Of a stretch of 64,000 nt of DNA, positions 3,574-47,655 are shown piece by piece (within the stretch, counting starts at the first letter, position 1; each line of letters opens with the position of its first letter). Origin of the DNA: Deltaproteobacteria bacterium. Its GTDB lineage: Bacteria > UBA10199 > GCA-002796325 > JACPFF01. The notes below the pieces were generated by a model, which worked only from the letters and a program-made list of their open reading frames with translations, had not been told where the DNA came from and did not search any database. The translations under genes and the position numbers were made by a program. Where the stretch lies: positions 299,629-363,628 of the forward strand of contig JACPFF010000006.1 in NCBI GenBank assembly GCA_016183065.1, given 5' to 3'.

Positions 3574-3729
3574 CTATTTACAGGGGCTCGCGTACCCTGC
3601 GGCTCCGCCTCCGGGTACTTCCTCGTCCACCCGCTTCGCGGGTCCCCGGACTCGGTCGTCGCCACACCCCCCTCCACCGGCAAAGCCGGTGGAGCCTCCC
3701 CCTCACGCTCGCCGTGCTCGCTGGATCGC
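3574..3729. repeat. Modular GC-rich intergenic repeat, copy R2
   Basis: Same orientation as R1, with an almost identical left half (TTTACAGGGGCTCGCGTACC onward). The hairpin differs: the stem reads CCACCGGCAAAGCCGGTGG instead of CCAACGGGCAAAGCCCGTTGG, with compensating changes on both sides. The right arm (CACGCTCGCCGTGCTCGCTGG) is also diverged. The gap between the purM start (3466) and the kinase start (3931) is 464 nt and holds this repeat, the inverted repeat at 3730-3779 and the promoter at 3787-3815. The stretch 3467-3573 contains only the weak purM promoter candidate. Confidence 0.9.
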
Positions 3730-3779
3730 TTCCCACGGGCGACACGAGCTGCCGAGGACCACGCGTTTGCCCGTGGGAA
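3730..3779. promoter_or_regulatory. 11-bp perfect inverted repeat upstream of kinase promoter
   Basis: TTCCCACGGGC (3730-3740) and GCCCGTGGGAA (3769-3779) are perfectly complementary, separated by 28 nt. The right arm ends 7 nt before the -35 box at 3787. The left half also occurs next to repeat copy R10 (32831-32840), so it may be a variable tail of the repeat family. Either a structured terminator for read-through or an operator is possible. Confidence 0.5.
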
Positions 3780-5150: not shown

Positions 5151-6536
5151 ATGCAGGAGACGATCCTCATAGTAGATGATGAAGTGGCCATTCGCCGGGC
5201 ATTGGAACGGTTGCTGACCGATGACGGATATCGTCTCCTCACCGCGAGCAATGCCGACGAGGCATTGCAGCATGTGGCCCGCGAGCCGATCCAGTGCGCC
5301 CTCGTCGATCTTGTCCTGCCGGGACGGAGCGGCATCGAGCTGGTCCGCTTGCTGCGTGCGCAGATGCCAGACAGCGTGTCGATCGTCATGACCGGATTCG
5401 GGACCATCGCCAGTGCGGTCGATGCTATGAAGGCCGGGGCGTTTCACTATCTCACGAAACCGTTTGAACTCGACGATATCCGGCAGCTCGTCCAGACGGC
5501 ACTCGACCACCAGCACCTCCGTGTCGAAAATCGCGAGCTGAAGCGGGCCGTGCAGACCCGCTATCAATTTGCCAATATTATCGGGCATTCGGACGCCATG
5601 CACGGGGTCTTTCGCCTGATTGAAAAGGTCGCAGCCACCGACAGCACGGTCCTTCTCCTCGGGGAATCGGGGACCGGCAAGGAACTGGTGGCGCGCGCGG
5701 TCCATTGTCACAGTCACCGTGCCCAGCATCCCCTCGTCACGGTCAATTGTGCCGCCATTCCGGATGATCTCCTGGAGTCGGAGCTGTTCGGTCACGTGAA
5801 AGGGGCCTTTACGAGCGCGTCGTCGACGCAAGTCGGCAAATTTGTGGCCGCGCATGGTGGGACGATCTTTCTCGACGAAATCGCCGACATGAGTCCCAAG
5901 CTGCAGGTCAAACTGCTCCGCGTCATCCAGGAGCGACGCGTGGAACCGCTCGGCTCCACACAATCGCAGGAGATTGATGTGCGGATCATCGCCGCCACGA
6001 ACCATGATCTGGAGTTGGCCATTCAGGAGCGGCGGTTCCGCGAGGACCTCTACTATCGCCTCAATGTGATTCCGGTCAAACTGCCGCCCCTGCGGGACCG
6101 TCGCGATGACATCGCGTTTTTGGCGCAACATTTTCTTGCGCGGTTCAATGCGGACAATGGGCGGCAGGTGGAGGGGTTTGCTCCCGAGGTGATCGTCTAT
6201 TTGACGCAGTACGAATGGCCCGGGAACGTGCGGGAGCTGGAGAACCTGATCGAGCGACTCGTCGTGATCAAGGGGCATGGGATCATTGTGCCGGAAGATC
6301 TCCCCGCACATATGCTGGAAGGGAGTGTCTCGTTCCAGTCACCCGCCCTGCATATCCCCGATACCGGCATCTGCTTCAAGGCCGCGGTGACCGAGTTCGA
6401 AAATGCCCTGATTTTGCAGGCGCTCGCCAAGACGGGTGGCAACAAGAACCGCGCGGCGGGTCTTCTGCAACTGAATCGGACGACGTTGGTGGAAAAAATC
6501 AAGAAGAAGCAGCTGGAACGACACGTGGCGGAATAA
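5151..6536 (+). CDS. Sigma54-dependent NtrC-family response regulator 1
   Basis: Start at ATG 5151 with GGGAGGG just upstream, followed by MQETILIVDDE; 461 residues. Receiver domain with acidic pair DD, phospho-acceptor in LVDLVLPG (Asp about 53) and the TKPF lysine. The AAA+ domain has the Walker A motif GESGTGKE at about 170-177. The sigma54-contact loop reads GAFTSA (about 218-223) instead of canonical GAFTGA. The Fis-type helix-turn-helix has GGNKNRAAGLLQLNRTTLVE near the C-terminus. It directly follows the histidine kinase and is its probable output: phosphorylation would allow ATP-driven activation of sigma54 promoters. Targets are not visible. Confidence 0.93.
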   Translation: MQETILIVDDEVAIRRALERLLTDDGYRLLTASNADEALQHVAREPIQCALVDLVLPGRSGIELVRLLRAQMPDSVSIVMTGFGTIASAVDAMKAGAFHYLTKPFELDDIRQLVQTALDHQHLRVENRELKRAVQTRYQFANIIGHSDAMHGVFRLIEKVAATDSTVLLLGESGTGKELVARAVHCHSHRAQHPLVTVNCAAIPDDLLESELFGHVKGAFTSASSTQVGKFVAAHGGTIFLDEIADMSPKLQVKLLRVIQERRVEPLGSTQSQEIDVRIIAATNHDLELAIQERRFREDLYYRLNVIPVKLPPLRDRRDDIAFLAQHFLARFNADNGRQVEGFAPEVIVYLTQYEWPGNVRELENLIERLVVIKGHGIIVPEDLPAHMLEGSVSFQSPALHIPDTGICFKAAVTEFENALILQALAKTGGNKNRAAGLLQLNRTTLVEKIKKKQLERHVAE

Positions 6537-6558
6537 TGAATCGTATGGGAGGGTGCTC

Positions 6559-7989
6559 ATGTACAAAAATACGAATCTCCTGATTGTGGACGACGATGAC
6601 GCGCTGGTCAAAGTCTTTGAACGCGTGGCGCGTGATGAAGGCCTGACGGTTGCCGTGGCCCGGTCGGGGACGGAGGCCATCGAGGTCCTCAACCGCCAGG
6701 TGATCGAGGCGGCGGTCATTGATATCAACCTGCCTGGATACAGCGGCATGCAGCTCCTCGAGTATATCAAGCAGAACCAGTTTCCCACGGAGGTGATTAT
6801 CATCACCGGGGTGGGGACCGTGGAAACCGCAGTCCGCGCGATCAAGATTGGGGCGTATGATTATCTGACCAAACCCTTCGACGACGTGACCAAAGTCGTG
6901 ATCATCATCAATAAGGCGCTGGAAAAATTCCGTCTCATGCAACGGATCCGGGTGCTGGAGCGCAAAGGGGAGGAGACCTTTGCGTATGAAGAGATCGTGG
7001 GGAAGAGTCACAAGATGCGCGACATTTTTTCGACGATCGATAGCGTGGCGGGGACAACCTCGACCGTGTTGCTCCTGGGGGAATCGGGGACGGGGAAGGA
7101 ACTAGTGGCACGTGCGGTGCATCGGCGGTCCAAACGGGTGGACAAGCCGTTCGTCGTCATCAACTGTGCCGCGCTCTCGGAGAGTTTGCTCGAAAGCGAG
7201 TTGTTCGGGCACGTGCGGGGATCTTTTACCGGGGCGATCGCCGATAAAATGGGGCTCTTTCAGGAGGCCGACGGCGGGACCATTTTTCTCGATGAAATTG
7301 CCGAAATTCCTTCCAGCACGCAGGTGAAATTGTTGCGGGTGTTGCAGGAGGGGGAAGTGCGCCCCGTCGGTGGGGCACAAAACCGGACGATCGACGTCCG
7401 CCTCATTGCCGCGACCAATCAGGATCTGGCAGAGGCCGTGACTGAGGGGCGCTTCCGGGAGGATCTTTACTACCGGCTCAATGTGATTCAACTCTCCCTG
7501 CCGCCGCTGCGGGACCGCCAGGAAGATATCCCCCTCTTGGCGTATCACTTCCTCCAAAAATATGCGAAGAAGCTGGAAAAAGATGTGACCAAGATCGCCA
7601 TCGAGACCCTGCAGATCCTGCAAAACTATCAATGGGTCGGGAATGTGCGGGAGCTCGAGAACGTGATGGAACGTGCCGTCGTGCTCGTGCAAGGCGATAC
7701 CATCACCGTCAGGGATCTGCCGCCTCGTGTGTTGGGCGAGGGATTTTATCTCCCGGAGGAACCGACCTCCTCGGATCTGTCGCGCTTTACCTATCAGGAG
7801 GCCAAAGAACGGTCGCTCTGGGCCTTTAATCGGGCCTATCTCTCGAATCTCCTCCGACAGACGCAGGGAAATCTCTCCAATGCCGCACAGCGGGCGGGGA
7901 TGGATCGGAGCAATTTCAAGAAAATCGTGAAAAAATTCAACATCGACTTGGGCGAATTTCGCAAAAAATCGAACGTGAGTGAGGTCTAA
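6559..7989 (+). CDS. Sigma54-dependent NtrC-family response regulator 2
   Basis: Start at ATG 6559 preceded by GGGAGGG; 476 residues. The receiver begins NLLIVDDDD and has the phospho-acceptor in VIDINLPG (Asp about 55) and YLTKPFDD, so it is fully equipped for phosphorylation. The AAA+ domain has GESGTGKELVARAVHRR and the variant GSFTGA at about 221, then FREDLYYRLNVIQLSLPPLR. The C-terminal Fis-type helix-turn-helix reads GNLSNAAQRAGMDRSNFKK. It lies 22 nt after regulator 1 and its stop overlaps the start of regulator 3 (TAATG). No second kinase is adjacent, so it may share the upstream kinase or receive input from elsewhere. Confidence 0.93.
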   Translation: MYKNTNLLIVDDDDALVKVFERVARDEGLTVAVARSGTEAIEVLNRQVIEAAVIDINLPGYSGMQLLEYIKQNQFPTEVIIITGVGTVETAVRAIKIGAYDYLTKPFDDVTKVVIIINKALEKFRLMQRIRVLERKGEETFAYEEIVGKSHKMRDIFSTIDSVAGTTSTVLLLGESGTGKELVARAVHRRSKRVDKPFVVINCAALSESLLESELFGHVRGSFTGAIADKMGLFQEADGGTIFLDEIAEIPSSTQVKLLRVLQEGEVRPVGGAQNRTIDVRLIAATNQDLAEAVTEGRFREDLYYRLNVIQLSLPPLRDRQEDIPLLAYHFLQKYAKKLEKDVTKIAIETLQILQNYQWVGNVRELENVMERAVVLVQGDTITVRDLPPRVLGEGFYLPEEPTSSDLSRFTYQEAKERSLWAFNRAYLSNLLRQTQGNLSNAAQRAGMDRSNFKKIVKKFNIDLGEFRKKSNVSEV

Positions 7990-9368
7990 TGGCATCGCGA
8001 CTCCTCTGTATTCAAGACGAAGGTGCGGACACACTGGCCGTTCATGCCCTGTTGGGACAGGGGGGATGGACGGTAAAGACAGCCGGGCCACACGATTACG
8101 AGACCCTGCTCCGGTTGGATGTCCCGGACTGTGTGGTGATTCTTGTCCAACAGCGTGAGGTGAATGTCCTGCAGATGCTGGAGGCCATCCACGACATCGA
8201 TGAACATCTCCCGGTGATCATCGTCCTGGTGCAGCCGGGGGTCCTGCAGGACGTCGTGCAATTCATGAAGGCCGGTGCGCACGATGTCGTCGTCTGGCCG
8301 ACCGAAACGCCGCATTTCTTGCGTATGGTCGAACATGCGATCCATCTCTATCACCTGACCAAGCGGGTGTTCTTGTTGGAAAATCAGGTGGGGGGGTGGC
8401 GCGGACGTTTTGACGAGCTGATTGGCCAGGGGGCCAAGATGCAGGAAGTGTTTCAGATGATTCACACGGTCGCGTCCAGTAATGCCACCGTGTTGATTAC
8501 GGGAGAATCGGGGACGGGGAAGGAATTGGTGGCACGGGCCATCCACCGGCGGAGTCAGCGCGGGAAGAACCCGTTCATGGATCTCAACTGCGGGGCCATT
8601 CCGCGCGAGCTCCTCGAGAATGAGCTGTTCGGTCATGAGCGGGGGGCCTTTACGGGGGCCGAGCGGCGCTATTTGGGGTGTTGCGAACGTGCCGACGGCG
8701 GAACCCTTTTTCTGGACGAAATCTGCGAGATGGAACCGACCCTGCAGGTGAAAATTTTGCGATTGTTGCAGGAGCGGACCTATACGCGGGTCGGCGGGAC
8801 GGAGCGCCTCTCGGCCGATCTCCGTTTCATTGCGGCAACCAACCGCAACATCCACGAAGAGGTTGAAAAGGGACGATTCCGGGAGGATCTCTACTACCGG
8901 CTCAATGTGGTGCCAATTCATTTGCCGGCGCTGCGCGATCGACCGGAAGATATCCCGATCCTGGCGCGGTGGTTTCTGGAGCGCTTTGCCCAGAAACTGG
9001 AAAAGCCCTTCATCGAGTTCGCGCCCGATGTCTTGGAGCTTCTGGTCAGCTATCAATGGCCGGGCAACGTCCGCGAACTCGAAAACGTCATTGAGCGGAT
9101 GGTCGTACTCAACAATGACACGCGCGTCCGGATGAAGCATCTGCCGCCGCATATTCGCAAGGCGCAACGGCGCGGGGATCGTCTCCGTCATCCGGCACAG
9201 GTCGCGGTCGACGCCCAGTCGATCTTGCCGCTCGATCTCGTCGAAAAATATGCTATCGAGTCGGCGCTGGAGAAATGTGTGGGGAATGTGAGCGAGGCCG
9301 CAAAACGGCTCAAGATCGGTCAGGCCACGCTCTACCGGAAGATCCGGCAATACGGTCTACGGAATTAG
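7989..9368 (+). CDS. Sigma54-type AAA+ activator 3 with degenerate receiver
   Basis: 459 residues, translationally coupled to regulator 2 (TAATG at 7987-7991). The N-terminal 130 residues fold-align with a receiver but lack its chemistry: the acidic pair is reduced (LLCIQDEG), the phospho-acceptor position aligns to Leu in DCVVILVQQREV, and the conserved Lys segment reads VVVWPTETP. The AAA+ domain is intact: GESGTGKE (about 172), canonical ERGAFTGAE (about 219), and R-finger region FREDLYYRLNVVP. The Fis helix-turn-helix reads GNVSEAAKRLKIGQATLYRK. This suggests an activator controlled by ligand, partner protein or dimerisation with a sister regulator rather than by phosphorylation. Confidence 0.92.
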   Translation: MASRLLCIQDEGADTLAVHALLGQGGWTVKTAGPHDYETLLRLDVPDCVVILVQQREVNVLQMLEAIHDIDEHLPVIIVLVQPGVLQDVVQFMKAGAHDVVVWPTETPHFLRMVEHAIHLYHLTKRVFLLENQVGGWRGRFDELIGQGAKMQEVFQMIHTVASSNATVLITGESGTGKELVARAIHRRSQRGKNPFMDLNCGAIPRELLENELFGHERGAFTGAERRYLGCCERADGGTLFLDEICEMEPTLQVKILRLLQERTYTRVGGTERLSADLRFIAATNRNIHEEVEKGRFREDLYYRLNVVPIHLPALRDRPEDIPILARWFLERFAQKLEKPFIEFAPDVLELLVSYQWPGNVRELENVIERMVVLNNDTRVRMKHLPPHIRKAQRRGDRLRHPAQVAVDAQSILPLDLVEKYAIESALEKCVGNVSEAAKRLKIGQATLYRKIRQYGLRN

Positions 9369-9613
9369 TGGGGCCCCACGACCCAGCGCGCCCCGCGCGC
9401 GAGAGGGGGGGACCCAACGGGCTGTGCCCGTTGGGGGGGCGACGACCGAGTCCGGGGACCCAGCGAAGCTGGGTGGACGAGGAAGTCCCCGGAGGCGGAG
9501 CCGCAGGGGACGTGAGCCCCTGTGTGTGCAGTTCCCCAGCGCGCCCCGCGCGCGAGAGGGGGGGACCCAACGGGCTGTGCCCGTTGGGGGGGCGACGTGA
9601 GCCCCTCCAATAG
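9369..9613. repeat. Modular GC-rich intergenic repeat, copy R3 (double)
   Basis: Begins with the perfect palindrome GTGGGGCCCCAC immediately after the stop of regulator 3. It carries two GCGCGC arms and two copies of the stem CCCAACGGGCTGTGCCCGTTGGG (about 9411 and 9568). Between them are the stem CCCAGCGAAGCTGGG and the block GTCCCCGGAGGCGGAGCCGC. It ends GAGCCCCTCCAATAG. Orientation is opposite to R1. Confidence 0.92.
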
Positions 9614-9652
9614 TCGGGGATCTTCCGATGGCGTATCGCAACGGAGGGGATC

Positions 9653-9991
9653 ATGGATATCCAGGTGGTCAATCGCGGCGTCGTCTCGGTCATTCGTTGC
9701 CAGGGGAGTCTTGATGCCCAGACAGTCGGCCAATTCAAGAAATCCGTGACCCCAATCATGGCAGGGGATGCGGCACGGTTGATCCTCGACGGGACGGCCC
9801 TAACCTTTATCGACAGCATGGGGCTGGGGGTCCTCATTTCCATGATGCGGCGCCTGCGCGAACGCAAAGGAGAACTCAAGATGGCGGCATTGACGCCGGA
9901 CGTGCAATCCATTTTTGAGATCACCCGGTTGAACCGACTCTTCGACATCTGTCCCACCGTGGATGTTGCAGCACAACGTTTCGCCTCGTGA
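9653..9991 (+). CDS. STAS-domain anti-sigma factor antagonist (RsbV/SpoIIAA type)
   Basis: 112 residues, a single STAS domain. A clear ribosome site (CGGAGGGGATC) precedes ATG 9653. The conserved phosphorylation segment reads FIDSMGLGVL with the Ser at about residue 55. In partner switching, the unphosphorylated form binds the anti-sigma ATPase and frees its target; phosphorylation by the ATPase reverses this and a PP2C phosphatase reactivates it. Both other partners are encoded next (10158-11829), with repeat R4 between. No sigma factor gene is adjacent. Confidence 0.92.
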   Translation: MDIQVVNRGVVSVIRCQGSLDAQTVGQFKKSVTPIMAGDAARLILDGTALTFIDSMGLGVLISMMRRLRERKGELKMAALTPDVQSIFEITRLNRLFDICPTVDVAAQRFAS

Positions 9992-10148
9992 GTGGGGCCC
10001 CACGACCCAGCGCGCGAGAGGGGGGGACCCAACGGGCTGTGCCCGTTGGGGGGGCAGTGGCGACGACCGAGTCCGGGGACCCAGCGAAGCTGGGTGGACG
10101 AGGAAGTCCCCGGAGGCGGAGCCGCAGGGGACGTGAGCCCCTCCAATA
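9992..10148. repeat. Modular GC-rich intergenic repeat, copy R4
   Basis: Same orientation as R3. Order: GTGGGGCCCCAC palindrome, short GCGCGAGAGGGGGGG arm, stem CCCAACGGGCTGTGCCCGTTGGG, CAGTGGCGACGACCGAGTCC, stem CCCAGCGAAGCTGGG, GGAAGTCCCCGGAGGCGGAG, and end GAGCCCCTCCAATA. It starts directly after the STAS gene stop and ends about 10 nt before the next start, so the repeat sits inside the apparent operon. Confidence 0.92.
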
Positions 10149-10157
10149 AAGGAACCG

Positions 10158-14125: not shown

Positions 14126-14295
14126 GGGGGCAGTGGCGACGACCGAGTCCTGGCCCCCGCCAGCGCGCACCGCGCGCGAGAGGGGGGGCAGTGGCGACGA
14201 CCGAGTCCTGGCCCCCGCCAGCGCGCACCGCGCGCGAGAGGGGGGGACCCAACGGGCTTTGCCCGTTGGGGGGGCGACGTGAGCCCCTGTAATAG
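14126..14295. repeat. Modular GC-rich intergenic repeat, copy R5, with internal tandem duplication
   Basis: Orientation as R3. A 58-bp unit that begins CAGTGGCGACGACCGAGTCC and ends CGCGCGAGAGGGGGGG is present twice in perfect tandem (14131-14188 and 14189-14246). Then come the stem CCCAACGGGCTTTGCCCGTTGGG and the end GAGCCCCTGTAATAG. It fills the gap between two minus-strand genes. Confidence 0.92.
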
Positions 14296-14308
14296 TGGCA
14301 CGCAGATC

Positions 14309-18023: not shown

Positions 18024-18065
18024 GGACACCGCAATAAACGTCACCCCGACAAAAAGCCGGGGGCC

Positions 18066-18143
18066 ACTATTGGAGGGCTCACGTCGTCCCCCAACGGGCA
18101 AAGCCCGTTGGGTCCCCCCCCTCGCGCGCGCGGTGCGCGCTGG
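18066..18143. repeat. Modular GC-rich intergenic repeat, copy R6 (short)
   Basis: Orientation as R1: ACTATTGGAGGGCTCACGTC, stem CCCAACGGGCAAAGCCCGTTGGG, CCCCCCTCGCGCGCGCGG, GCGCGCTGG. It lacks the long CTCGGTCGTCGCC/GGAGGCGGAG block. Located 42 nt after hemA; no T-tract follows, so it is not a classical terminator. Confidence 0.88.
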
Positions 18144-18569: not shown

Positions 18570-18737
18570 ATGATCTGCGGGGGCATTACAGATCGTGATG
18601 ACCTTTGTGCGCTCCATCGACGATGGCACGCATTGACGGAGGCGCAACGAGAACTGCGCGGGTATTGTCACTCCAACCTGGACAGACTGCGCCACGAACT
18701 CGACGCCATCCATAACCATCACCATCAGGGACTCTAG
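18570..18737 (+). CDS. Small possible zinc-finger protein, start uncertain
   Basis: The frame is open from 18462; the reasonable start is ATG 18570 (MICGGITDRDDLC), giving 55 residues, though no ribosome site precedes it. A strong site (AGGAGG at 18531) instead serves ATG 18542 in another frame, which encodes only 18 residues (MEQSLGHILHDLRGHYRS). The main frame has a C-x2-C-x9-C-x2-H arrangement (counting the Cys just before the ATG) and a charged helical second half (LRHELDAIHNHHHQ). It could be a frameshifted gene. It meets the convergent lipoprotein gene tail to tail. Confidence 0.4.
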   Translation: MICGGITDRDDLCALHRRWHALTEAQRELRGYCHSNLDRLRHELDAIHNHHHQGL

Positions 18738-19528
18738 AACGTGAAGGAACCTGTTTTGGTCCCACTCAGATTAAACGCTTGATCACAGGCGGAGATGCAT
18801 CCCGAAACGCTGTCGCTGTAGGTCGCGGAACTTGTCCCCACCGTGATAGTCACGGTCTCCTCAAAATCGATGGTCATATTGCAAATTTTCGTGGACCCAT
18901 TCTCGATAAATCCGAGGAGGAATTCCTCGCTTAAACTGCTCGTCAAGGTGCTCACGGTCGTTTTGATCTGCACAGAGGCGGATGTCGACGTTGTTTCCTC
19001 AATCAAAATGCCCAATTTTCCGTCCATGCTCATATTGTTGAGACTGCTTCCGCCGTTGAACGCATCACAATTCAGTATAACCGTCTGCCCGGCAAGACTT
19101 CCCAGATCGATGGAAGAAGCCTTGATCTGACAACTTCCTCCACCATCGGAAGAGAGGTCAGTCCCCAAAATGGTCGCCACCGTGGAGGTCCCCGTATCGC
19201 CCGAGAAAGCAGGTTCAGAACAGGACGTTGCCGTTGTCACCGTGATTGCCTTTTTGGAAGGGAGAATCAGCGAGACCCCTTTGGGGATGGAGAGACTCAA
19301 GCTGGGGAGACTCAGACTTGCACTGGCCGACATGAGGCTGAGGGCCGACGATGCCGCACTGACGACCGTGTCACCCATATCCTCTGCTTGCGACGAGCTG
19401 ACCGTTGTGTCGGAACTTCCACCTGTCGTGTCGGAACCGCCGGCTGAGGAATCCGCAGCAGTCGATCCCCCACAACCGGAGAGCGCCAGAAGGAATGAGA
19501 TCAAAAATGCACTCTTACAACCTTTCAT
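18734..19528 (-). CDS. Ser/Thr-rich lipoprotein of unknown function
   Basis: 264 residues with a type II signal peptide ending in the lipobox LALSGC (lipidated Cys about 19). A low-complexity Ser/Thr/Asp linker follows (GGSDTTGGSSDTT), then a beta-rich body with at least six cysteines (TSCSEPAF, GGGSCQIK, VILNCDAF, KICNMTID, SGCISACDQAF), suggesting disulfides outside the cytoplasm. The composition resembles the lipoprotein at 22828-23736, but I see no clear sequence match between the two. No family recognised. Confidence 0.8.
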   Translation of the reverse strand: MKGCKSAFLISFLLALSGCGGSTAADSSAGGSDTTGGSSDTTVSSSQAEDMGDTVVSAASSALSLMSASASLSLPSLSLSIPKGVSLILPSKKAITVTTATSCSEPAFSGDTGTSTVATILGTDLSSDGGGSCQIKASSIDLGSLAGQTVILNCDAFNGGSSLNNMSMDGKLGILIEETTSTSASVQIKTTVSTLTSSLSEEFLLGFIENGSTKICNMTIDFEETVTITVGTSSATYSDSVSGCISACDQAFNLSGTKTGSFTF

Positions 19529-21429: not shown

Positions 21430-21488
21430 AGGCCTGCACACAGGCCTGCGCAAAAAAAATTGCACGGGCTTCCGGTATTTGCTATAGA
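21430..21488 (+). promoter_or_regulatory. Candidate promoter with upstream inverted repeat for the prenyl-peptide operon
   Basis: AGGCCTG (21430-21436) and CAGGCCT (21441-21447) form a perfect inverted repeat around CACA. After an A-tract (21452-21459) comes TTGCAC (21460-21465), a 17-bp spacer and TATAGA (21483-21488). Predicted transcription starts close to 21495, just before the ATG at 21505. The -35 box is a weak match; spacing and the AT-rich context support it. Confidence 0.4.
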
Positions 21489-21504
21489 CGCTTCCACTGT
21501 GGCG

Positions 21505-22611
21505 ATGGGGGATGGAGAGAGAGCGACGGAGTGCCATGCGACGGGAGAGGTCCTCCAGCCGCAGCATCGAGTCGTGTTGCGCGCGGTGCGCGAGCATCTG
21601 CGTCGATGTATCCCCGCGGGTCCTCTGACCGCCCTGTGTGAACGATGGCTGACACAGTTGGAAGACCATCTGCAGGAGCATGGGTCGGCCCCGTGCATTG
21701 ATGTCCCGTACCTGGTTGCCCAAGGACTCGGAGCGAATGCCGAAAAGACCCGGACAGTGGCCGTCTTCGCGACCTCCATCTTTCTCGGTTGTGATCTGCT
21801 CGATGATTTTCATGATCAGGCATGGCCTCGCGAGCTACGGTCCGCGTCGGTGAACACGGTCTCCCTGGCCGGTTCCTTGTTGCTCTCGGTCATACCGACG
21901 CTGGTGATTGCGGAGATTCCCGATCTCTCCGACGCCGGGCGTTTTCATGCCTGTCGCATGGTCGCGGAATATTTGCAGCGGATGGCTGGCGGACAGGCCG
22001 ATGATTTGCGGTCGCCATGGAATCCCGAGCTCTCCATCGATGCCACCCAGTCGCGCATGATGGCCAAAAGCGGGGAAGAGATGGCGCTTTTTTGTCATTT
22101 CAGCGCGCTCGTGACCGGATGCGATGCCCATCTCCAGCAGGAGTGTGCGCAATTCGGGCGCGAGATGGCCATGGCCCTGCAAATCATCTCCGATCTGACC
22201 GATCTCTTCGAGAAACCGGTCAGTACGGATTTGCAGCAGGGGACCGGGACACTCCCGCTCGCATTGCACCTGGCACGATTGGAGACAGGGGCGCGGAAGG
22301 CCTTCTGCGGTCTTTGGCGGGAGAGTGCGCACTCTCCCGCGGCGAGAAGGCGCCTCCAATGGGCCATGTGCGATTCTGGCGCCGTGGCGCATGCGGCCGT
22401 CATGATCGAGTCCTATGGTGAACGAGCGAAGGAGCGCTTGCACGGACTCCCGCTCCACCCCGCGTCACAGCACGCGCTGCAAGAGGAGATCGCGACCCTC
22501 TCCCGGTATGCCTTGGCTCATCTGCAGGCTTTTTTGCACCATGAACCGGAGAAACCGAGTGATCCTCTGTTTCTTCATTCTCGCACGTTACGAAAGGAGC
22601 GCACGCGATGA
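21505..22611 (+). CDS. Class I isoprenoid (polyprenyl) synthase family protein, ComQ-like
   Basis: About 368 residues from ATG 21505; an in-frame GTG at 21403 lies upstream of the promoter candidate, so the shorter form is preferred. The all-helical protein carries the first Asp-rich motif as LLDDFHDQ (Asp about 100-104) and a degenerate second motif, IISDLTDLFEK (about 227-237), with KSGEEMALFC between them as in trans-prenyl synthases. The sparse second motif and small-partner context resemble ComQ, which prenylates the ComX pheromone. The following 72-residue gene overlaps it (ATGA at 22608-22611). A plain terpenoid synthase is the alternative. It belongs to an operon with the peptide and a lipoprotein. 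Confidence 0.72.
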   Translation: MGDGERATECHATGEVLQPQHRVVLRAVREHLRRCIPAGPLTALCERWLTQLEDHLQEHGSAPCIDVPYLVAQGLGANAEKTRTVAVFATSIFLGCDLLDDFHDQAWPRELRSASVNTVSLAGSLLLSVIPTLVIAEIPDLSDAGRFHACRMVAEYLQRMAGGQADDLRSPWNPELSIDATQSRMMAKSGEEMALFCHFSALVTGCDAHLQQECAQFGREMAMALQIISDLTDLFEKPVSTDLQQGTGTLPLALHLARLETGARKAFCGLWRESAHSPAARRRLQWAMCDSGAVAHAAVMIESYGERAKERLHGLPLHPASQHALQEEIATLSRYALAHLQAFLHHEPEKPSDPLFLHSRTLRKERTR

Positions 22612-22826
22612 CGCATGAAAACACCGCAGTAGTCTTGGAGGCCCTCAGGCACGATTCCGCGCTGTTACGCGCATTGACGGAGGATGCGGACAGGGCGTTG
22701 GATCACCTGCAGATCCCCATCGGTGCCGACGAGCGGGCGTTGTGGAAGACGTTGGCGGGCAAACTGGGCGCGACAGCGTCCATCACGGCAGAAAGGACGA
22801 AGGGCATTGCCCTTCTGGGGATGTAA
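22608..22826 (+). CDS. 72-residue leader-like peptide, candidate modified-peptide precursor
   Basis: Start overlaps the stop of the isoprenoid synthase gene (ATGA). The sequence has a helical, leader-like first half (VVLEALRHDSALLRALTEDA, then DRALDHLQIPIGADERALWK) with the pattern of acidic helix, Gly turn and E-R-x-L-W seen in ComX pre-peptides and in some RiPP leaders. The second half (AGKLGATASITAERTKGIAL) is small-residue rich. There is one Trp (about residue 46) and no Cys. The coupling to a prenyl-synthase-like enzyme suggests the Trp might be modified, but in ComX the modified Trp is close to the C-terminus, which is not so here. Function is inferred only. Confidence 0.6.
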   Translation: MTHENTAVVLEALRHDSALLRALTEDADRALDHLQIPIGADERALWKTLAGKLGATASITAERTKGIALLGM

Positions 22827-22827
22827 C

Positions 22828-23736
22828 ATGCGAAACTTTGCACAACGAACCGTGGTCGTTTTTCTGATCGTGGGCCTCCTCGGGTGTTCCGGGAGTACTG
22901 CGAGTGATACGACAGAGACGACCGAGACCACCACGGCCACGTTGAATGATTTGACCACATTCGTCCAATGGGCAGGCCATACGTGGGACGATCTGGTGGC
23001 GCAACTGAGCGTGTCAAAGGCCTTCAGTGTTGATTTTCCGATTCCCTGCGCCGGCGGGGGCACCATCACGTCGGATGGAACCACGATCTCGCTCAACGAC
23101 TGCACGGAGACCTATGGGGAGACGACCTATGTCACGCGCGGCACCTATACGGTGACAACGTCCGGTTCGCTCACCACGCACGCCTGGGAACAGAGTATTA
23201 TCGTGGACGGCAGTACCACCTTTTCGTGCACCGGTTCCGTCAGCTTTAACACGAGCGATGATCTTGTGGCGTTTGACTACTCCGGCACATTCACGAGCGG
23301 GACCTTCCGACTGACCGGGACGGTGGCCGACAATAGCGACGGGACGAGCGATTGCATCTTCTCCGTCCTCCTCGACGGCGAGGCCTGGCAGGACGGCCTG
23401 TTCGACGATACCGACTTGGACGCCCTGACGGAGACGCAGGTCGACCAGGCCTGCACGGACGACGATGACCCGGCGTGTGCGACCCTCGAGTGTGCGAACG
23501 ATTTCCAGTGCCAGCTCTTTGCCGATGACAATACGAGCGATGAATACGAGACCGGGAACATCGAGTGCGCCTCCGGATGTTGCGCCCTGAAGAGCAGTGT
23601 CAGCGAATGTCCAGACTCGGCGCCCTGCAGCACCGATTTCCAGTGCCAGCTCTTTGCCGATGATAGTACCACGGACGTCTTTGAAACCGACAATGTCACC
23701 TGTGCCGATGACGGCTGTTGTGCGGTCGTGGAGTAA
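22828..23736 (+). CDS. Lipoprotein with two tandem Cys-rich repeats
   Basis: Starts 1 nt after the peptide gene stop, so it is in the same operon. 302 residues. The lipobox VGLLGC puts the lipidated Cys at about residue 20; a Thr/Glu-rich linker follows (DTTETTETTTATLND). A beta-rich, acidic domain spans about 40-215. The C-terminus has two copies of a roughly 35-residue unit beginning C-x-x-DFQCQLFADD and ending GCCA (about 228-262 and 267-302), each with five to six Cys. The unit looks like a small disulfide-bonded or metal-binding module. Surface-exposed role inferred; not recognised as a known family. Confidence 0.8.
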   Translation: MRNFAQRTVVVFLIVGLLGCSGSTASDTTETTETTTATLNDLTTFVQWAGHTWDDLVAQLSVSKAFSVDFPIPCAGGGTITSDGTTISLNDCTETYGETTYVTRGTYTVTTSGSLTTHAWEQSIIVDGSTTFSCTGSVSFNTSDDLVAFDYSGTFTSGTFRLTGTVADNSDGTSDCIFSVLLDGEAWQDGLFDDTDLDALTETQVDQACTDDDDPACATLECANDFQCQLFADDNTSDEYETGNIECASGCCALKSSVSECPDSAPCSTDFQCQLFADDSTTDVFETDNVTCADDGCCAVVE

Positions 23737-24821: not shown

Positions 24822-26225
24822 GTGCGTGATAGCGTGAAGCCGCTGTGGCGCGTGGTGTTGCTGTTGCAATGCGGTCAAGGTGCGCTCAATGGCCTCTTCC
24901 TCTATACATGGGGCCCCTATTTCTACGACCGTTTTTCCGTCACGGGTTCGGTGCAGAGTGCGCTCGTCATTGTGATGGTCCTCTTTGCCCTGCGTCAGGC
25001 ATTGGTCGCGCTGATGGAGGTCCCGGTCGGGGCATTGGCCGATACGATCGGACGGAGTCGTGTCGTGATGCTCTCCTTTGCGGTGCGGTGTGCGTTTTTT
25101 CTCTCCATGGTGGCCCTCGCCTTTTGTGACACGCTCTTTACGGCGGTCTTCTGGGCCGGTGCGGCGAGCCTCTGTTATGCCGCCGGCTATACGCTCTTCA
25201 ACGGGGCGTTTTCTGCGTGGTGCGCGGAGGCGATGCGCGCCTGTGCGCCGGATGTCCCCTACAGCTGGATGGCCGCGCGGTACATGATCTATCAATCGAT
25301 CGGCGAAATGGCGGGTGCGGTGCTGGCCATTCTCCTCTATCTGCACGGGATGCCGTTCGGGGCCTTTTTGTGCGGGGCCGCGGTGGCATACGGCCTCATG
25401 GCCGTCGGGATCTCGCGGATGGCAGAGACCCGCGCGGTTGCCCCTGTGGAGCAGAGCCCGCGCTACGACCTGGCCACGCTCGTGCGTATGATCGGTCTCC
25501 GGATTGCCGACAGCGTCACGGTCGTCCGGCAGTTGCCGGTGATGCTCTGGGTGACACTCACCTACGGCGCCTTCATGTTCCTCATGAGTCTGGTGCTCCA
25601 TCTCTGGCCCATCTACCTGCGGGAGATCGCCGGTGCACAGCAACTCGGCCCGGCCTGGGTTGGGATTGCACTCCTCTGCCTCGTCATTCTGCTCGCAAGC
25701 GCCAAGGGTTTTGCGGTGGTCAACGACCGCCTGATTCTGCGGGCCGCGGGAAATCAGGCGCGATTCGCCATGTATCGTTGGGTCCTCTCGGGCGCGGCCA
25801 CGCTCAGTGCCCTGAGTGTCGGGTGCTTGAGTAGCGTGACGGCCTTTGCGGGGGAGCCGCCGTTGGGTCTTCTCATCTTTGCGATCGGGAGTGTCCTCTG
25901 CAGCGCGGGAATCATCATGTCGTGTTACGATATTGTGATCAATTCGCTGATCGGACCGGAGTGCGCAGCGGATCGCGCCACCATCCTCTCCGGTGGGAGT
26001 ATGGTCCGCAGCCTCCTGACCCTGCTCCTTGCAGTCCCCGCGGGTGGTATCAGCGCGGAGCATTCACCGATGGGGTGGTCGATCCCGGCCGTGATCCTCG
26101 GGATCGCCGGGCTCATGGCCCATCGGGCGCTTGGAGACCATGCCCGCGGTCGTGGGGCGACAACAGACCGCGCGGAATCTCCGGGTGCCATGGAGATGCG
26201 CACGGCGCAGCCGCCGGAGGGGTGA
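24822..26225 (+). CDS. Major facilitator superfamily transporter
   Basis: 467 residues starting at GTG 24822 with AGAGGTC upstream. About twelve membrane helices. The loop between helices 2 and 3 carries the MFS motif A as GALADTIGRSRVVM. A central cytoplasmic loop (RMAETRAVAPVEQSPRYD) divides the two six-helix halves, and the C-terminus is a charged tail. The substrate cannot be told. The next gene, a membrane histidine kinase, begins 1 nt after its stop, so transport and sensing are probably linked. MFS-kinase pairing without a response regulator is uncommon. Confidence 0.88.
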   Translation: MRDSVKPLWRVVLLLQCGQGALNGLFLYTWGPYFYDRFSVTGSVQSALVIVMVLFALRQALVALMEVPVGALADTIGRSRVVMLSFAVRCAFFLSMVALAFCDTLFTAVFWAGAASLCYAAGYTLFNGAFSAWCAEAMRACAPDVPYSWMAARYMIYQSIGEMAGAVLAILLYLHGMPFGAFLCGAAVAYGLMAVGISRMAETRAVAPVEQSPRYDLATLVRMIGLRIADSVTVVRQLPVMLWVTLTYGAFMFLMSLVLHLWPIYLREIAGAQQLGPAWVGIALLCLVILLASAKGFAVVNDRLILRAAGNQARFAMYRWVLSGAATLSALSVGCLSSVTAFAGEPPLGLLIFAIGSVLCSAGIIMSCYDIVINSLIGPECAADRATILSGGSMVRSLLTLLLAVPAGGISAEHSPMGWSIPAVILGIAGLMAHRALGDHARGRGATTDRAESPGAMEMRTAQPPEG

Positions 26226-26226
26226 C

Positions 26227-27264
26227 ATGCGGCTCTACGAACGATTGATCATCCTGATGGTGCCGCTCATCCTCCTCCCGTCGGCACTGATTGCGGTCGT
26301 GGCCCTCGTCATCTACCAGCACCCGGAGCGCATTGGCGCCGATCAGACGTGGATCGTGGAAATGGTGGTCGGTGTCATGCTCGTGGCCATCACGATCGTT
26401 AGTCTGTGCGTCTTGCGCAGCGCGGTGGCGTCGGTGGCGCGGCCGATCCAGCGCGTCGAAGAGATGGCGGCGGCGATGGCGGTCGGCGCACGCGACGTGC
26501 CGATGACCATCGATCCCAAGGCCGAAGGGGAGGCCGCGCATTTGCTCCGGGCCATGGCGCAGTTGCAATCGGTCCTGCGACAGTATGAAGAGGACTTGCG
26601 GCAAAAGTCGGCGGATGAGGCCACCGGGCAGCTTGCCGCGCAGGTGGCGCACGACATCCGATCGCCACTGGCCGTCTTGCGGACGCTGGGATGCCGGATC
26701 CGCGATGTCGAACGGGAGAGCGGGGTCAATCTGGCGAGTGCGCTCTATGTCCGGACCATCGGACGCCTGGAGGCCATGGCCGATGAACTGCGCGCCGTGG
26801 CCCGGGCGAAACAGGTCGACCGGATTTCGAGCGATGTGGTGACGGTGTTGCAACGGACCATCGACGAGGTGCGCGCAGGCCTTGGGACCCATGTGCAGTT
26901 TCAATATGTGGGACCGTCGGAATTATGGGCCGCGATCGATGTGGAGAAATTCGCCCGTCTTCTCACCAATCTGTTGCACAATGCCATCCAAGCGATCCCG
27001 GAGGATCGGTCCGGGCTGGTCGTTGTTGAAATGACGGAACAGGCGGGGACGTTTGCCCTCTCGGTGCGGGATAACGGGAGCGGGATTGCCACGCACGTCC
27101 TCCCACAGATTTTTTCCCGCCATTTCACGACCAAGGGGGAGCACGGGACGGGTCTGGGCCTGGCCTATTGTAAAGAGGTGGTCGAGGCCCATGCCGGGGC
27201 GATCCTGGCCCGCAATCGCGAGGCCGGCGGAGCCGAATTCCTCGTCACGCTGCCACGATTCTGA
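26227..27264 (+). CDS. Membrane sensor histidine kinase (HAMP)
   Basis: Start at ATG 26227, 1 nt after the MFS stop; 345 residues. Two N-terminal membrane helices (about 9-30 and 40-60) enclose only a very short external loop, so the signal may be sensed in the membrane or through the MFS partner. A HAMP-type linker (ASVARPIQRVEEMAAAMAVG) follows, then a phospho-acceptor helix QVAHDIRSPLAVL and an HATPase domain with NLLHNAIQAI, VRDNGSGI and GTGLGLAYCKEV. No response regulator gene is adjacent; repeat R7 lies downstream. Confidence 0.9.
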   Translation: MRLYERLIILMVPLILLPSALIAVVALVIYQHPERIGADQTWIVEMVVGVMLVAITIVSLCVLRSAVASVARPIQRVEEMAAAMAVGARDVPMTIDPKAEGEAAHLLRAMAQLQSVLRQYEEDLRQKSADEATGQLAAQVAHDIRSPLAVLRTLGCRIRDVERESGVNLASALYVRTIGRLEAMADELRAVARAKQVDRISSDVVTVLQRTIDEVRAGLGTHVQFQYVGPSELWAAIDVEKFARLLTNLLHNAIQAIPEDRSGLVVVEMTEQAGTFALSVRDNGSGIATHVLPQIFSRHFTTKGEHGTGLGLAYCKEVVEAHAGAILARNREAGGAEFLVTLPRF

Positions 27265-27280
27265 TCGCTGTTCCGAGACC

Positions 27281-27358
27281 AAGCCGCACTGCGGCGTTGA
27301 AGGGGAGGCTCCAGCGGCTTTGCCGCTGGAGGGGGCGACGTGAGCCCCTCCAATAGTG
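27281..27358. repeat. Modular GC-rich intergenic repeat, copy R7
   Basis: Orientation as R3. It has a different arm (AAGCCGCACTGCGGCGTTGA) and the stem CTCCAGCGGCTTTGCCGCTGGAG, which replaces the CCAACGGGC stem with full compensation. End: CGTGAGCCCCTCCAATAGTG. Located directly after the histidine kinase. Confidence 0.9.
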
Positions 27359-27434
27359 GAATTGCGGCTAGACACGGTGTGGCATGGGTGTTAGAGACGG
27401 CCCGTGGTGGGTGTGTATGAGAAGGAGCGGACCC

Positions 27435-27697: not shown

Positions 27698-27869
27698 GTG
27701 GGGCCCCACGGGCTCACGCCTGTGGCACCCTGGGGGGAGGCTTCGCCTGAGCACGACACCCCCCGGACTAACGTCCGGGGCCCCACGACCCAGCCGCACC
27801 GCGGCGTTGAAGGGGAGGCTCCAGCGGCTTTGCCGCTGGAGGGGGCGACGTAAGCCCCTCCAATAGTGG
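27698..27869. repeat. Modular GC-rich intergenic repeat, copy R8 (compound)
   Basis: Orientation as R3. Begins with the palindrome GTGGGGCCCCAC, then an extra segment with the stem CCCCCCGGACTAACGTCCGGGG, a further GGGGCCCCACGACCCAGCCG, the arm CCGCACCGCGGCGTTGAAGG, and the same CTCCAGCGGCTTTGCCGCTGGAG stem as R7, ending GTAAGCCCCTCCAATAG. R7 and R8 right halves are nearly identical. Confidence 0.9.
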
Positions 27870-32159: not shown

Positions 32160-32789
32160 ATGCAATTGATCTTGGCATCGGGATCGCCACGACGGGCAAT
32201 GCTCCTCGCACAATTGGGGCTTCCATTTCAGGTTGTTGTGCCGACCATTGAGGAGATTGTTCCCGACGGGATGATGCCGAGGGAGGCGGCAGCGCATTTG
32301 GCCATGGCCAAGGCGCACGCGGTGGCGAGTGGCCATGAGGATGCACTGGTGATCGGGAGTGATACGATGGTGGTCCTGCAGGAAGAGATCCTTGGAAAGC
32401 CAGCCTCGGATCAGGAGGCCGCGGTCATGCTGACCCGGTTGCAGGGGCGCACGCACACCGTGATGACCGCCGTGGTCGTCTGTCACGCGGTATCGGCCCG
32501 GTCGTGGTCCCATGTTGACTGTGCGGAGGTCACCATGAAGCGACTCACGACCACGGAGATCGCGGCTTATGTGGCGACGGGCGAGTCGCGCGACAAGGCC
32601 GGCGCGTATGCCGCGCAGGGCGAGGGCGCGCGTCTGATTGCGGCCGTGTCGGGGGATTTTTTTGCAGTCGTTGGACTTCCTGTGCGCGCCACCATCTCCT
32701 TGCTGGAGCAGGCCGGGTTGTCGGTGACCGCGAATGTCGACGCCATCTATTCCAGGGGCTCACGTCGCCCCCTCCATCAGCGAAGCTGA
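32160..32789 (+). CDS. maf: Maf-like nucleoside triphosphate pyrophosphatase
   Basis: House-cleaning pyrophosphatase for modified or canonical NTPs; some members arrest septum formation. 209 residues. Motifs: LILASGSPRRAMLLAQLG at the N-terminus, VIGSDTMVVLQ (about 67-77), GKPASDQEAAVMLTRLQGRTH, and the end region ESRDKAGAYAAQGEGA then LPVRATISLLEQAGL. The final residues (YSRGSRRPLHQRS) and the stop codon are encoded by repeat copy R10, so the normal end of the protein has been extended or replaced by repeat sequence. The ribosome site is weak (GGGGATCGGCT). Confidence 0.92.
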   Translation: MQLILASGSPRRAMLLAQLGLPFQVVVPTIEEIVPDGMMPREAAAHLAMAKAHAVASGHEDALVIGSDTMVVLQEEILGKPASDQEAAVMLTRLQGRTHTVMTAVVVCHAVSARSWSHVDCAEVTMKRLTTTEIAAYVATGESRDKAGAYAAQGEGARLIAAVSGDFFAVVGLPVRATISLLEQAGLSVTANVDAIYSRGSRRPLHQRS

Positions 32790-32865
32790 TGGAGCCTCCC
32801 CCTCTCGCGCGCTGTGCGCGCTGGGGAGATTCCCACGGGCGACGGGAGCCGCCGAGGGCGGGGAA
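32747..32865. repeat. Modular GC-rich intergenic repeat, copy R10
   Basis: Orientation as R1: CTATTCCAGGGGCTCACGTC, then the stem CTCCATCAGCGAAGCTGATGGAG (another compensated stem variant with a GAA loop), CTCTCGCGCGCTGTGCGCGC, and a tail TTCCCACGGGCGACGGGAGC that matches the sequence after R2. The maf stop codon TGA lies in the right arm of the stem. Confidence 0.9.
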
Positions 32866-46012: not shown

Positions 46013-47632
46013 ATGTGGCGTGCCAGTGCAAGAAAAGGGCTCCCCGGGGTATTGCTCGTCGCGCTGTTGGGCGCACCGATGGCAGGCTGTCAGCGCTGCG
46101 TGTCGACCTCGGTACCGCCCAAAACCGCCTCGGAGCGGGTACTCAATTTTAACAACCTGGCCGAGCCGGAATATCTCGATCCGGGCATGGTGCAGGGGAA
46201 TGTCGAGTACAATCTCTGCATGGCGCTCTTTGAGGGGCTGTTGGTCCCGGATCCAAAGACCGCCGAACCGATCCCTGGCGTCGCCGAGCGGTGGGAGATG
46301 GCGAAAGATGGGCGGGTCTATACGTTCCATCTCCGGCGCCATGCGCAATGGAGTGATGGCCATCCGGTCACGGCCCATGATTTTGTCTATGCCTGGGAAC
46401 GGGTCCTGAATCCGGAAACCGGGGCACCGTTTGCCTACATCCTTTATTACCTCAAGAATGCCAGGGCCTATAATCTCGGGACGATGACGGATCCGCGTGC
46501 GCTCGGCGTCCGCGCCGTGGACGACCACACCCTGGAAGTCACCCTGGAGCACCCGACGACCTTTTTCCTCAAGCTCCTCCCGTTGATGACCTATATGCCT
46601 GTGCCGCGCTGGGCCATCGAGGCACACGGGCCGTTGTGGACGCGACCCGAGCATATCGTCACCAATGGCCCGTTCGCGCTCACGGCGTGGATTCCCTATA
46701 AAGAAATCCTCGTGAAACGGAGCCCAACCTATTGGGATGCCGCATCGGTACGATTGGCGGGCGTCCGTTTTCATCCCCTCGAAGAGAAAGAGACCGCACT
46801 CAAAATGTATCTGGCCGGGGAACTCGATGTCGATTGGGAGCTCCCGGTGTTGAAGATGAGCGAACTCCGGTCCCATCCGGAGATGGTGGAAGGGCCGCGG
46901 TTTGCGCTCTATTTCTACCGACTCAATACCGCGCGGCCACCGCTCGATGATCCGCGCGTCCGTCGTGCACTCGCCATGGCGATCGATCGGGAGACGCTGG
47001 TCAATCAGTACCTGCAGCAGACGCAAATCCCGACGGACACACTCATGCCCGCCGGCGTGCCACAGTATCGGTATCCGCAGGGGCCGGGGTTCCATCCGCA
47101 GCAGGCCCGTGAATTGTTACGGGCGGCCGGTTTTGCGGATCCTGCCACCTTTCCGCCGTTGACCATCCACTACAATACGGACGACCGGCACAAACTCATT
47201 GCGCAGGTGATCCAGCAGATGTGGAAGACGCATCTCGGGATCTCGGTGCAACTCTTCAATGAAGAGTGGAAGTCCTATCTCAAGACGTGGCAGACCAGGA
47301 ATTACGAGATTTCGCGGGCGGGATGGGTGGGGGATTACGTCGATCCGCAAAGTTTCCTCGATCTCTTTACCTCGACCTCCACGCAAAATGCCACGGGATG
47401 GGGGAACCCCGAATATGACCGGTTGGTCGAGGCGGCCAGTGCGGATCCGGATCAGGCCCGGCGCTATGCGCTCCTTGAGTCGGCGGAGACCCTCTTGCTC
47501 GATGAAATGCCGATGGTGCCGATCATGACCTATATCAAAATGATGTTGGTGAAGCCGGCGGTGAAGGGGATCTATTCGAATGTCCTCGATCTCCATCCCT
47601 TGAAAACCGTCTCTTTTGACATGACACCATAA
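46013..47632 (+). CDS. oppA: Oligopeptide-binding lipoprotein, paralogue 1
   Basis: Extracytoplasmic solute-binding protein (SBP_bac_5), 539 residues. Signal peptide with lipobox-like APMAGC (Cys about 26). Family landmarks: NNLAEPEYLDPGMVQGN, YTFHLRRHAQWSDGHPVTAH then DFVYAWERVL (about 100-145), FALTAWIPYKEILV, and DPRVRRALAMAIDR around residue 315. It delivers peptides to OppBCDF, encoded divergently. A G-rich stretch (GGGGGTATGACAT) precedes the ATG. Followed 23 nt later by a paralogue of very similar length and motif order. Confidence 0.95.
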   Translation: MWRASARKGLPGVLLVALLGAPMAGCQRCVSTSVPPKTASERVLNFNNLAEPEYLDPGMVQGNVEYNLCMALFEGLLVPDPKTAEPIPGVAERWEMAKDGRVYTFHLRRHAQWSDGHPVTAHDFVYAWERVLNPETGAPFAYILYYLKNARAYNLGTMTDPRALGVRAVDDHTLEVTLEHPTTFFLKLLPLMTYMPVPRWAIEAHGPLWTRPEHIVTNGPFALTAWIPYKEILVKRSPTYWDAASVRLAGVRFHPLEEKETALKMYLAGELDVDWELPVLKMSELRSHPEMVEGPRFALYFYRLNTARPPLDDPRVRRALAMAIDRETLVNQYLQQTQIPTDTLMPAGVPQYRYPQGPGFHPQQARELLRAAGFADPATFPPLTIHYNTDDRHKLIAQVIQQMWKTHLGISVQLFNEEWKSYLKTWQTRNYEISRAGWVGDYVDPQSFLDLFTSTSTQNATGWGNPEYDRLVEAASADPDQARRYALLESAETLLLDEMPMVPIMTYIKMMLVKPAVKGIYSNVLDLHPLKTVSFDMTP

Positions 47633-47655
47633 CGAGGACCATGCGGAGGGGGACG

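Follow-up and report, generated by a model that had tools for sequence, protein, structure and literature searches.

Peptide prenylation by enzymes with the isoprenyl diphosphate synthase (IDS) fold has few examples in the literature consulted (ComQ, PalQ and ChrP), all of them on Trp, which is the target of every known trans-IDS-like enzyme (PMC13290415). In Paenibacillus, the trans-IDS-like Trp prenyltransferase PalQ is paired with PalX, an NHLP-type precursor (PMC10853753). In ComQ, the first Asp-rich motif is essential and kept, and the second is lost or replaced (PMC5331326). We analyzed a stretch of bacterial DNA of 64,000 nucleotides (the window), in which the original prediction had placed a ComQX-like operon of synthase, leader-like peptide and lipoprotein. 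The open-access literature, to which our search was mostly confined, gave no description of this gene set. The features of the window that matter here are as follows.

18734..19528, minus strand: second putative lipoprotein, possibly an accessory (uncertain), with a BLASTP relative near the synthase of genome G009
21505..22611, plus strand: diverged polyprenyl-synthase-fold enzyme, putative peptide prenyltransferase (Pfam PF00348, AlphaFold2, PDB fold match)
21802..21816, plus strand: first Asp-rich motif DDFHD (FARM), intact and invariant across 15 aligned relatives
22189..22203, plus strand: degenerate second motif SDLTD with the first Asp replaced (alignment against canonical synthases, same genome)
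22608..22826, plus strand: 72-aa precursor-like peptide ending in ALLGM, probably a diverged NHLP/Os1348-related member
22743..22745, plus strand: only Trp codon of the window peptide (W46, within ERALWK), at a position not conserved in alignments
22828..23736, plus strand: lipoprotein with a lipobox (LLGC), a beta-rich domain and two C-terminal Cys-rich repeats (FQCQLFADD...GCC)
703-864, 3578-3757, 9367-9614, 9991-10154, 14126-14299, 18063-18143, 27277-27359, 27787-27869 and 32742-32857, both orientations: copies of a dispersed repeat

The synthase frame is open from GTG 21403 to the TGA stop at 22609-22611, and ATG 21505 is the likelier start. The synthase stop overlaps the peptide start in ATGA at 22608-22611, a Shine-Dalgarno-like AAAGGAG lies upstream of the peptide gene, and the lipoprotein gene follows after a gap of 1 nt. 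The coordinates thus bear out the predicted gene order, as they do the DDFHD motif, the degenerate second motif and the ERALWK segment with its single Trp at residue 46. A promoter scan around the cassette gave no signal above chance. The arrangement is more than chance, as the trio of synthase, peptide and lipoprotein was found again in other genera.

Two other features of the window were noted. The dispersed repeats, about 80-150 bp long and about 80-100% identical, also occur on contig C7 (L104) and look like REP or MITE-type elements. Self-comparison revealed tandem diverged paralogues at 46138-49001 and 5655-9110, which are about 67% identical at the DNA level across 0.5-1.2 kb.

Fold and residues of the enzyme

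The window synthase matched Pfam PF00348 (polyprenyl_synt) at E 1.5e-12. Its best NCBIfam matches were polyprenyl synthases, far under their cut-offs, and its score against NF041169 (Family 2 encapsulin cargo polyprenyl transferase) was 57 bits, below the cut-off of 450. The AlphaFold2 model showed an isoprenyl synthase fold with good confidence (pLDDT 88.6, pTM 0.87), and comparison with the PDB gave polyprenyl synthase 4jyx as the top match (Z 32.7) together with many ordinary synthases. Ord1 (PDB 9v4g-j) matched the model at Z 27.6, with an rmsd of 3.0 over 293 aligned residues and 16% identity. Because ordinary synthases and Ord1 both match, the fold alone is not decisive, and it is the residues that decide.

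For the residue comparison, the canonical synthases aligned with 15 family members came from the same class, and the two that the window genome has on contig C7 were among them. The first Asp motif was kept in all 17 family enzymes. GGKRxRP, the RRG after the first motif and the loop after the second motif (GK loop) were absent from all 15 aligned members, and in each of them the first Asp of the second motif was Ser or Thr. The canonical synthases of the class had all IPP-site features wherever the region was covered. DDxxD, the Lys of the KT/KS motif and the Gln three residues before the second motif were kept in all aligned family members; the Gln is not diagnostic, since canonical synthases also have it. 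The first Asp motif is the site of allylic diphosphate binding. The family thus has the fold and first DDxxD of canonical IDS enzymes but not their IPP site, the pattern expected if an allylic diphosphate were still bound and the acceptor were other than IPP. The kept first motif, altered second motif and kept upstream Gln also agree with the pattern published for ComQ/PalQ-type enzymes (PMC13290415, PMC5331326). A full second DDxxD together with terpene-pathway neighbours in relatives had been named at the outset as marks of an ordinary prenyl synthase; none of the 15 aligned members has the former, and none of the latter were noticed.

In the enzyme of G036 (L088:467-1336), about 60 residues appear to have been lost in frame downstream of the second Asp motif; the copy may be degenerate, or the assembly may be in error.

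Linkage and family of the peptides

The enzyme search among relatives gave ten further strong matches from the same class, each with a gene of 61-67 aa adjoining or near the synthase. Two more loci came from Elusimicrobia records, a third from the same phylum and another from a second enzyme copy in one Elusimicrobia genome; the last two, found among 385 genomes sampled across the domain, brought the total to 17. A peptide gene (61-72 aa) lies within 2 kb at 16 of the 17 synthase loci, and in the remaining genome, G471, synthase and peptide genes are on different contigs. The case named at the outset as refuting, homologues of the synthase without the peptide gene, did not arise. In a tree, the 17 enzymes formed a single clade separate from the canonical synthases (100/100), with the Elusimicrobia enzymes nested among class members, which suggests gene transfer between the class and Elusimicrobia.

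The loci fall into branches by their third gene. The window's branch of five genomes (G000, G004, G009, G012 and G038) has the Cys-rich lipoprotein and diverged peptides with an [LF][LF]GM tail, and at most loci without the lipoprotein its place is taken by a cNMP-binding/PqqD/M50 membrane protease (the protease branch). All ten Os1348-family matches among 46 class genomes adjoin a synthase. Among the 385 genomes, the synthase occurred in 13 and a strong protease-branch peptide match in 8, all 8 inside the 13 (hypergeometric 1e-13, with shared ancestry ignored); part of this co-occurrence may be due to shared ancestry. G400, a further genome of this sample, had no synthase, and its peptide matches were all weak (E about 1e-7).

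The NCBIfam model NF038399 (Os1348 family, NHLP clan) was matched by 10 of the 14 peptides collected first (best E 2.3e-17), with weaker matches to NHLP and Nif11 leader models and Pfam PF14407. A profile of 22 peptides matched the Os1348 crystal structure (PDB 6lk7) at E 1.9e-6 over residues 3-50. After the shared domain, most peptides continue with (I/V/M)(D/N)W and a DEEL-like segment, and finish in a short hydrophobic stretch that varies between them (GM, IP, Y, WLA, FFS, LFV or AVPTL). The peptides hardly exceed the leader domain in length, so any core is short and variable. Trp stands at the equivalent site in 24 of the 25 protease-branch peptides counted, the exception being that of G060, which reads VDL; Trp is thus a plausible acceptor in this branch. 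G017 and the Elusimicrobia genome G061 each have four tandem peptide copies with different tails, as is typical of precursor sets. The conserved adjacency to the synthase and a family falling mostly in the NHLP/Os1348 clan of RiPP precursors support the predicted leader-like, RiPP-like character of the peptide.

The window peptide is the most diverged member. By itself it had no NCBIfam match and only sub-threshold chance matches in Pfam, a sequence search of 60 relatives returned only the peptide itself, and a leave-one-out profile of its relatives detected it only at E 3.2; the relatives were found by synteny. Pairwise shuffles nevertheless support its homology with the peptides of G009 (z 7.9) and G031 (z 7.0), both above all 2000 shuffles, and profile comparison linked the peptides of the window branch with those of the other at 96.5% probability. 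All five window-branch peptides end in [LF][LF]GM, and this tail was found in no other ORF of the five regions, apart from the near-matching synthase ends of G012 and G038. Among 565 ORFs of the window, the C-terminal pattern is confined to this peptide. In the alignment of the five, no Trp or other nucleophile position was shared: Trp is at W46 in the window, at a different late position in G009, and in the first half only in the other three. Because these positions differ, no one residue stands out as the acceptor in the window branch, and Trp is not plausible as a general rule there.

The synthase C-termini of G012 (L082, KLFGA) and G038 (L083, MLFGM) are near-copies of the [LF][LF]GM tail of the adjacent peptides.

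Third genes and other neighbours

The lipoprotein had been predicted as a partner, and its family indeed adjoins the synthase in the five genomes of the window's branch, with a contig-end fragment in G036. Orthologues of the window lipoprotein beside the synthase in four genomes are 34-58% identical to it; weak matches elsewhere cover mostly the Cys repeats. Its AlphaFold2 model reached a pLDDT of only 61.8, and its best fold matches, outer-membrane barrels (Z about 10, rmsd above 4), were too weak to be interpreted. A relative of the second, minus-strand lipoprotein lies about 3.5 kb from the G009 synthase (34% over 222 aa, E 2e-26).

In the protease branch, a homologous protein of 428-712 aa was found at nine loci, eight with a synthase and one (G061 C6) with the peptide alone, and G467 and G471 add two more cNMP-PqqD-M50 proteins. 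It consists of one or two cNMP-binding domains, a PqqD-like domain and an M50 domain with an invariant His-x3-His and a distal Asp. The PqqD-like domain, a RiPP recognition element, scored near the Pfam cut-off, mostly just under it. The window genome had no match to this protein. LolA-like (PF17131), MacB/FtsX permease and ABC ATPase genes lie close by in three class genomes, and G258 has permease and ATPase genes near the locus.

Several further observations concern these neighbourhoods. In two of the nine proteases (L085:10576-11925 and L093:7732-9075), the M50 motif reads HDLGH or HDAAH, not HExxH, so their activity may differ. G002 (L103:6325-8016) has a cNMP-PqqD-M50 protein without synthase or peptide, and beside it, judged by eye, are a putative CHASE2-type cyclase gene and a FecR-like gene. 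A sensor-kinase-like ORF (by eye) at 26131-27264 lies 2.4 kb downstream of the window cassette, with two genes between, and neighbour clustering placed its relatives near three other synthase loci (L085, L087 and L090); kinases are common genes.

Interpretation and comparison with known systems

On balance, the product of the cassette is probably a ribosomal peptide that is lipidated (prenylated) by the IDS-fold enzyme encoded next to it. At its intact DDxxD, the enzyme would bind an allylic diphosphate, presumably a product of the FPP-type and octaprenyl-type canonical synthases encoded elsewhere in the genome, and, its IPP site being lost, would pass the prenyl moiety on to the small peptide instead. 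The peptide may be recognised through its helical NHLP/Os1348-type N-terminal domain. For the protease branch, the Trp just past this domain would be the likely acceptor, and the PqqD-M50 membrane protease with its cNMP-binding domains would then mature the product, which the LolA-like and MacB-FtsX transporters may export. In the window branch, the acceptor would probably lie in the C-terminal half that ends in [LF][LF]GM, and the Cys-rich lipoprotein would fill the third place.

Several results count against prenylation of the peptide: the short and variable core, the lack of a common nucleophile in the window branch, the lack of the protease in the window genome, and the separation of the G471 synthase from the peptide genes. 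Alternatively, the helical protein could be a regulatory or adaptor subunit, not a substrate, of an enzyme that forms a terpenoid or for which a small molecule is the acceptor of the allylic diphosphate: domains of the Os1348 type are folded proteins, hardly any core stands apart from the domain in these peptides, and two-subunit prenyl synthases exist (3aqb and 9kp1 were among the fold matches). We find this unlikely, because RiPP-precursor models match most of the peptides, a subunit would hardly be expected in as many as four tandem copies, with differing tails, next to a single enzyme, and the PqqD-M50 protease accompanies the pair. The peptide could instead be a true RiPP-like precursor whose key processing is done by the protease or another enzyme, with the synthase-fold protein supplying the prenyl donor or being a degenerate, non-catalytic binder. 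Such a role would suit the peptide-protease pairs of G471 and G061 C6, which have no synthase next to them, and the G036 enzyme, which lacks about 60 residues around the second motif. But every aligned relative keeps DDxxD, Lys and Gln, and neither G471 nor G061 is without a synthase, which in each genome lies on another contig, so that this reading is less likely again. An ordinary isoprenyl diphosphate synthase followed by a chance small ORF would explain the fold, the Pfam match and the sub-threshold NCBIfam matches to polyprenyl synthases. Against it stand the lost IPP ligands, the canonical synthases already present on contig C7 and the conservation of the peptide gene at 16 of 17 loci, so that this reading is very improbable and largely refuted.

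If the cassette does prenylate its peptide, a conserved gene set of Gram-negative candidate lineages would widen this chemistry and supply enzymes with new acceptor sites, and would tie a peptide product to control by cyclic nucleotides, to membrane proteolysis and to sorting of the lipoprotein type. We propose only tentatively, as one possibility, that these lineages hold a new class of lipidated RiPPs, in which the window-branch enzyme would prenylate Os1348-type precursors at a non-Trp C-terminal site, and the other branch would use a PqqD-M50 protease gated by cyclic nucleotides and reach the outer membrane by a Lol-like route. The known trans-IDS-like enzymes, being Trp-only, fit the window branch poorly.

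Ord1, a farnesyltransferase of free tryptophan, has the same fold and, like the enzymes here, keeps the Gln before the second motif, but it ranks under many ordinary synthases as a fold match. Its second-motif first Asp acts with the Gln in Trp recognition, whereas here that Asp is Ser or Thr. MppC, a cyanobacterial lanthipeptide prenyltransferase, was set aside for its different (ABBA) fold. The Os1348 cluster of Pseudomonas sp. Os17 (PMC7726476) has a peptide of the same family (6lk7, matched at profile residues 3-50), but acetyltransferase, peptidase and SagB-type genes follow it and it has no prenyl synthase; the peptides here add an (I/V)DW...DEEL segment after the shared domain.

ComQ/ComX shares with the present loci a diverged prenyl synthase that has lost the second Asp motif and an adjoining small peptide gene. 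The second motif of ComQ keeps one Asp, whereas two are kept here, and ComX belongs to another family than the present peptides, which have a folded leader-like domain. Because no ComP/ComA kinase-regulator pair lies directly beside the window cassette, we did not file it as comQXPA. The original ComQ-like idea is supported at the level of the system (IDS fold, ComQ/PalQ-like divergence and peptide adjacency) but not as a strict ComQX pair, and the likeness to ComQ and PalQ is one of published motif criteria and the described gene pairing. PalQ/PalX, as here, joins an IDS-superfamily enzyme with an intact first Asp motif to an adjoining precursor with an NHLP-type leader, and a peptide family of the NHLP/Os1348 clan resembles PalX more than it does ComX. 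The acceptor Trp of PalX is at its very end, whereas here the tails vary (GM, IP, FFS, LLGM) and a conserved Trp, where there is one, stands about 14-19 residues before the C-terminus. In place of a histidine kinase, the present set, from Gram-negative candidate lineages, has a lipoprotein or a PqqD-M50 protease as its third gene, although in the window the kinase-like ORF does lie 2.4 kb downstream.
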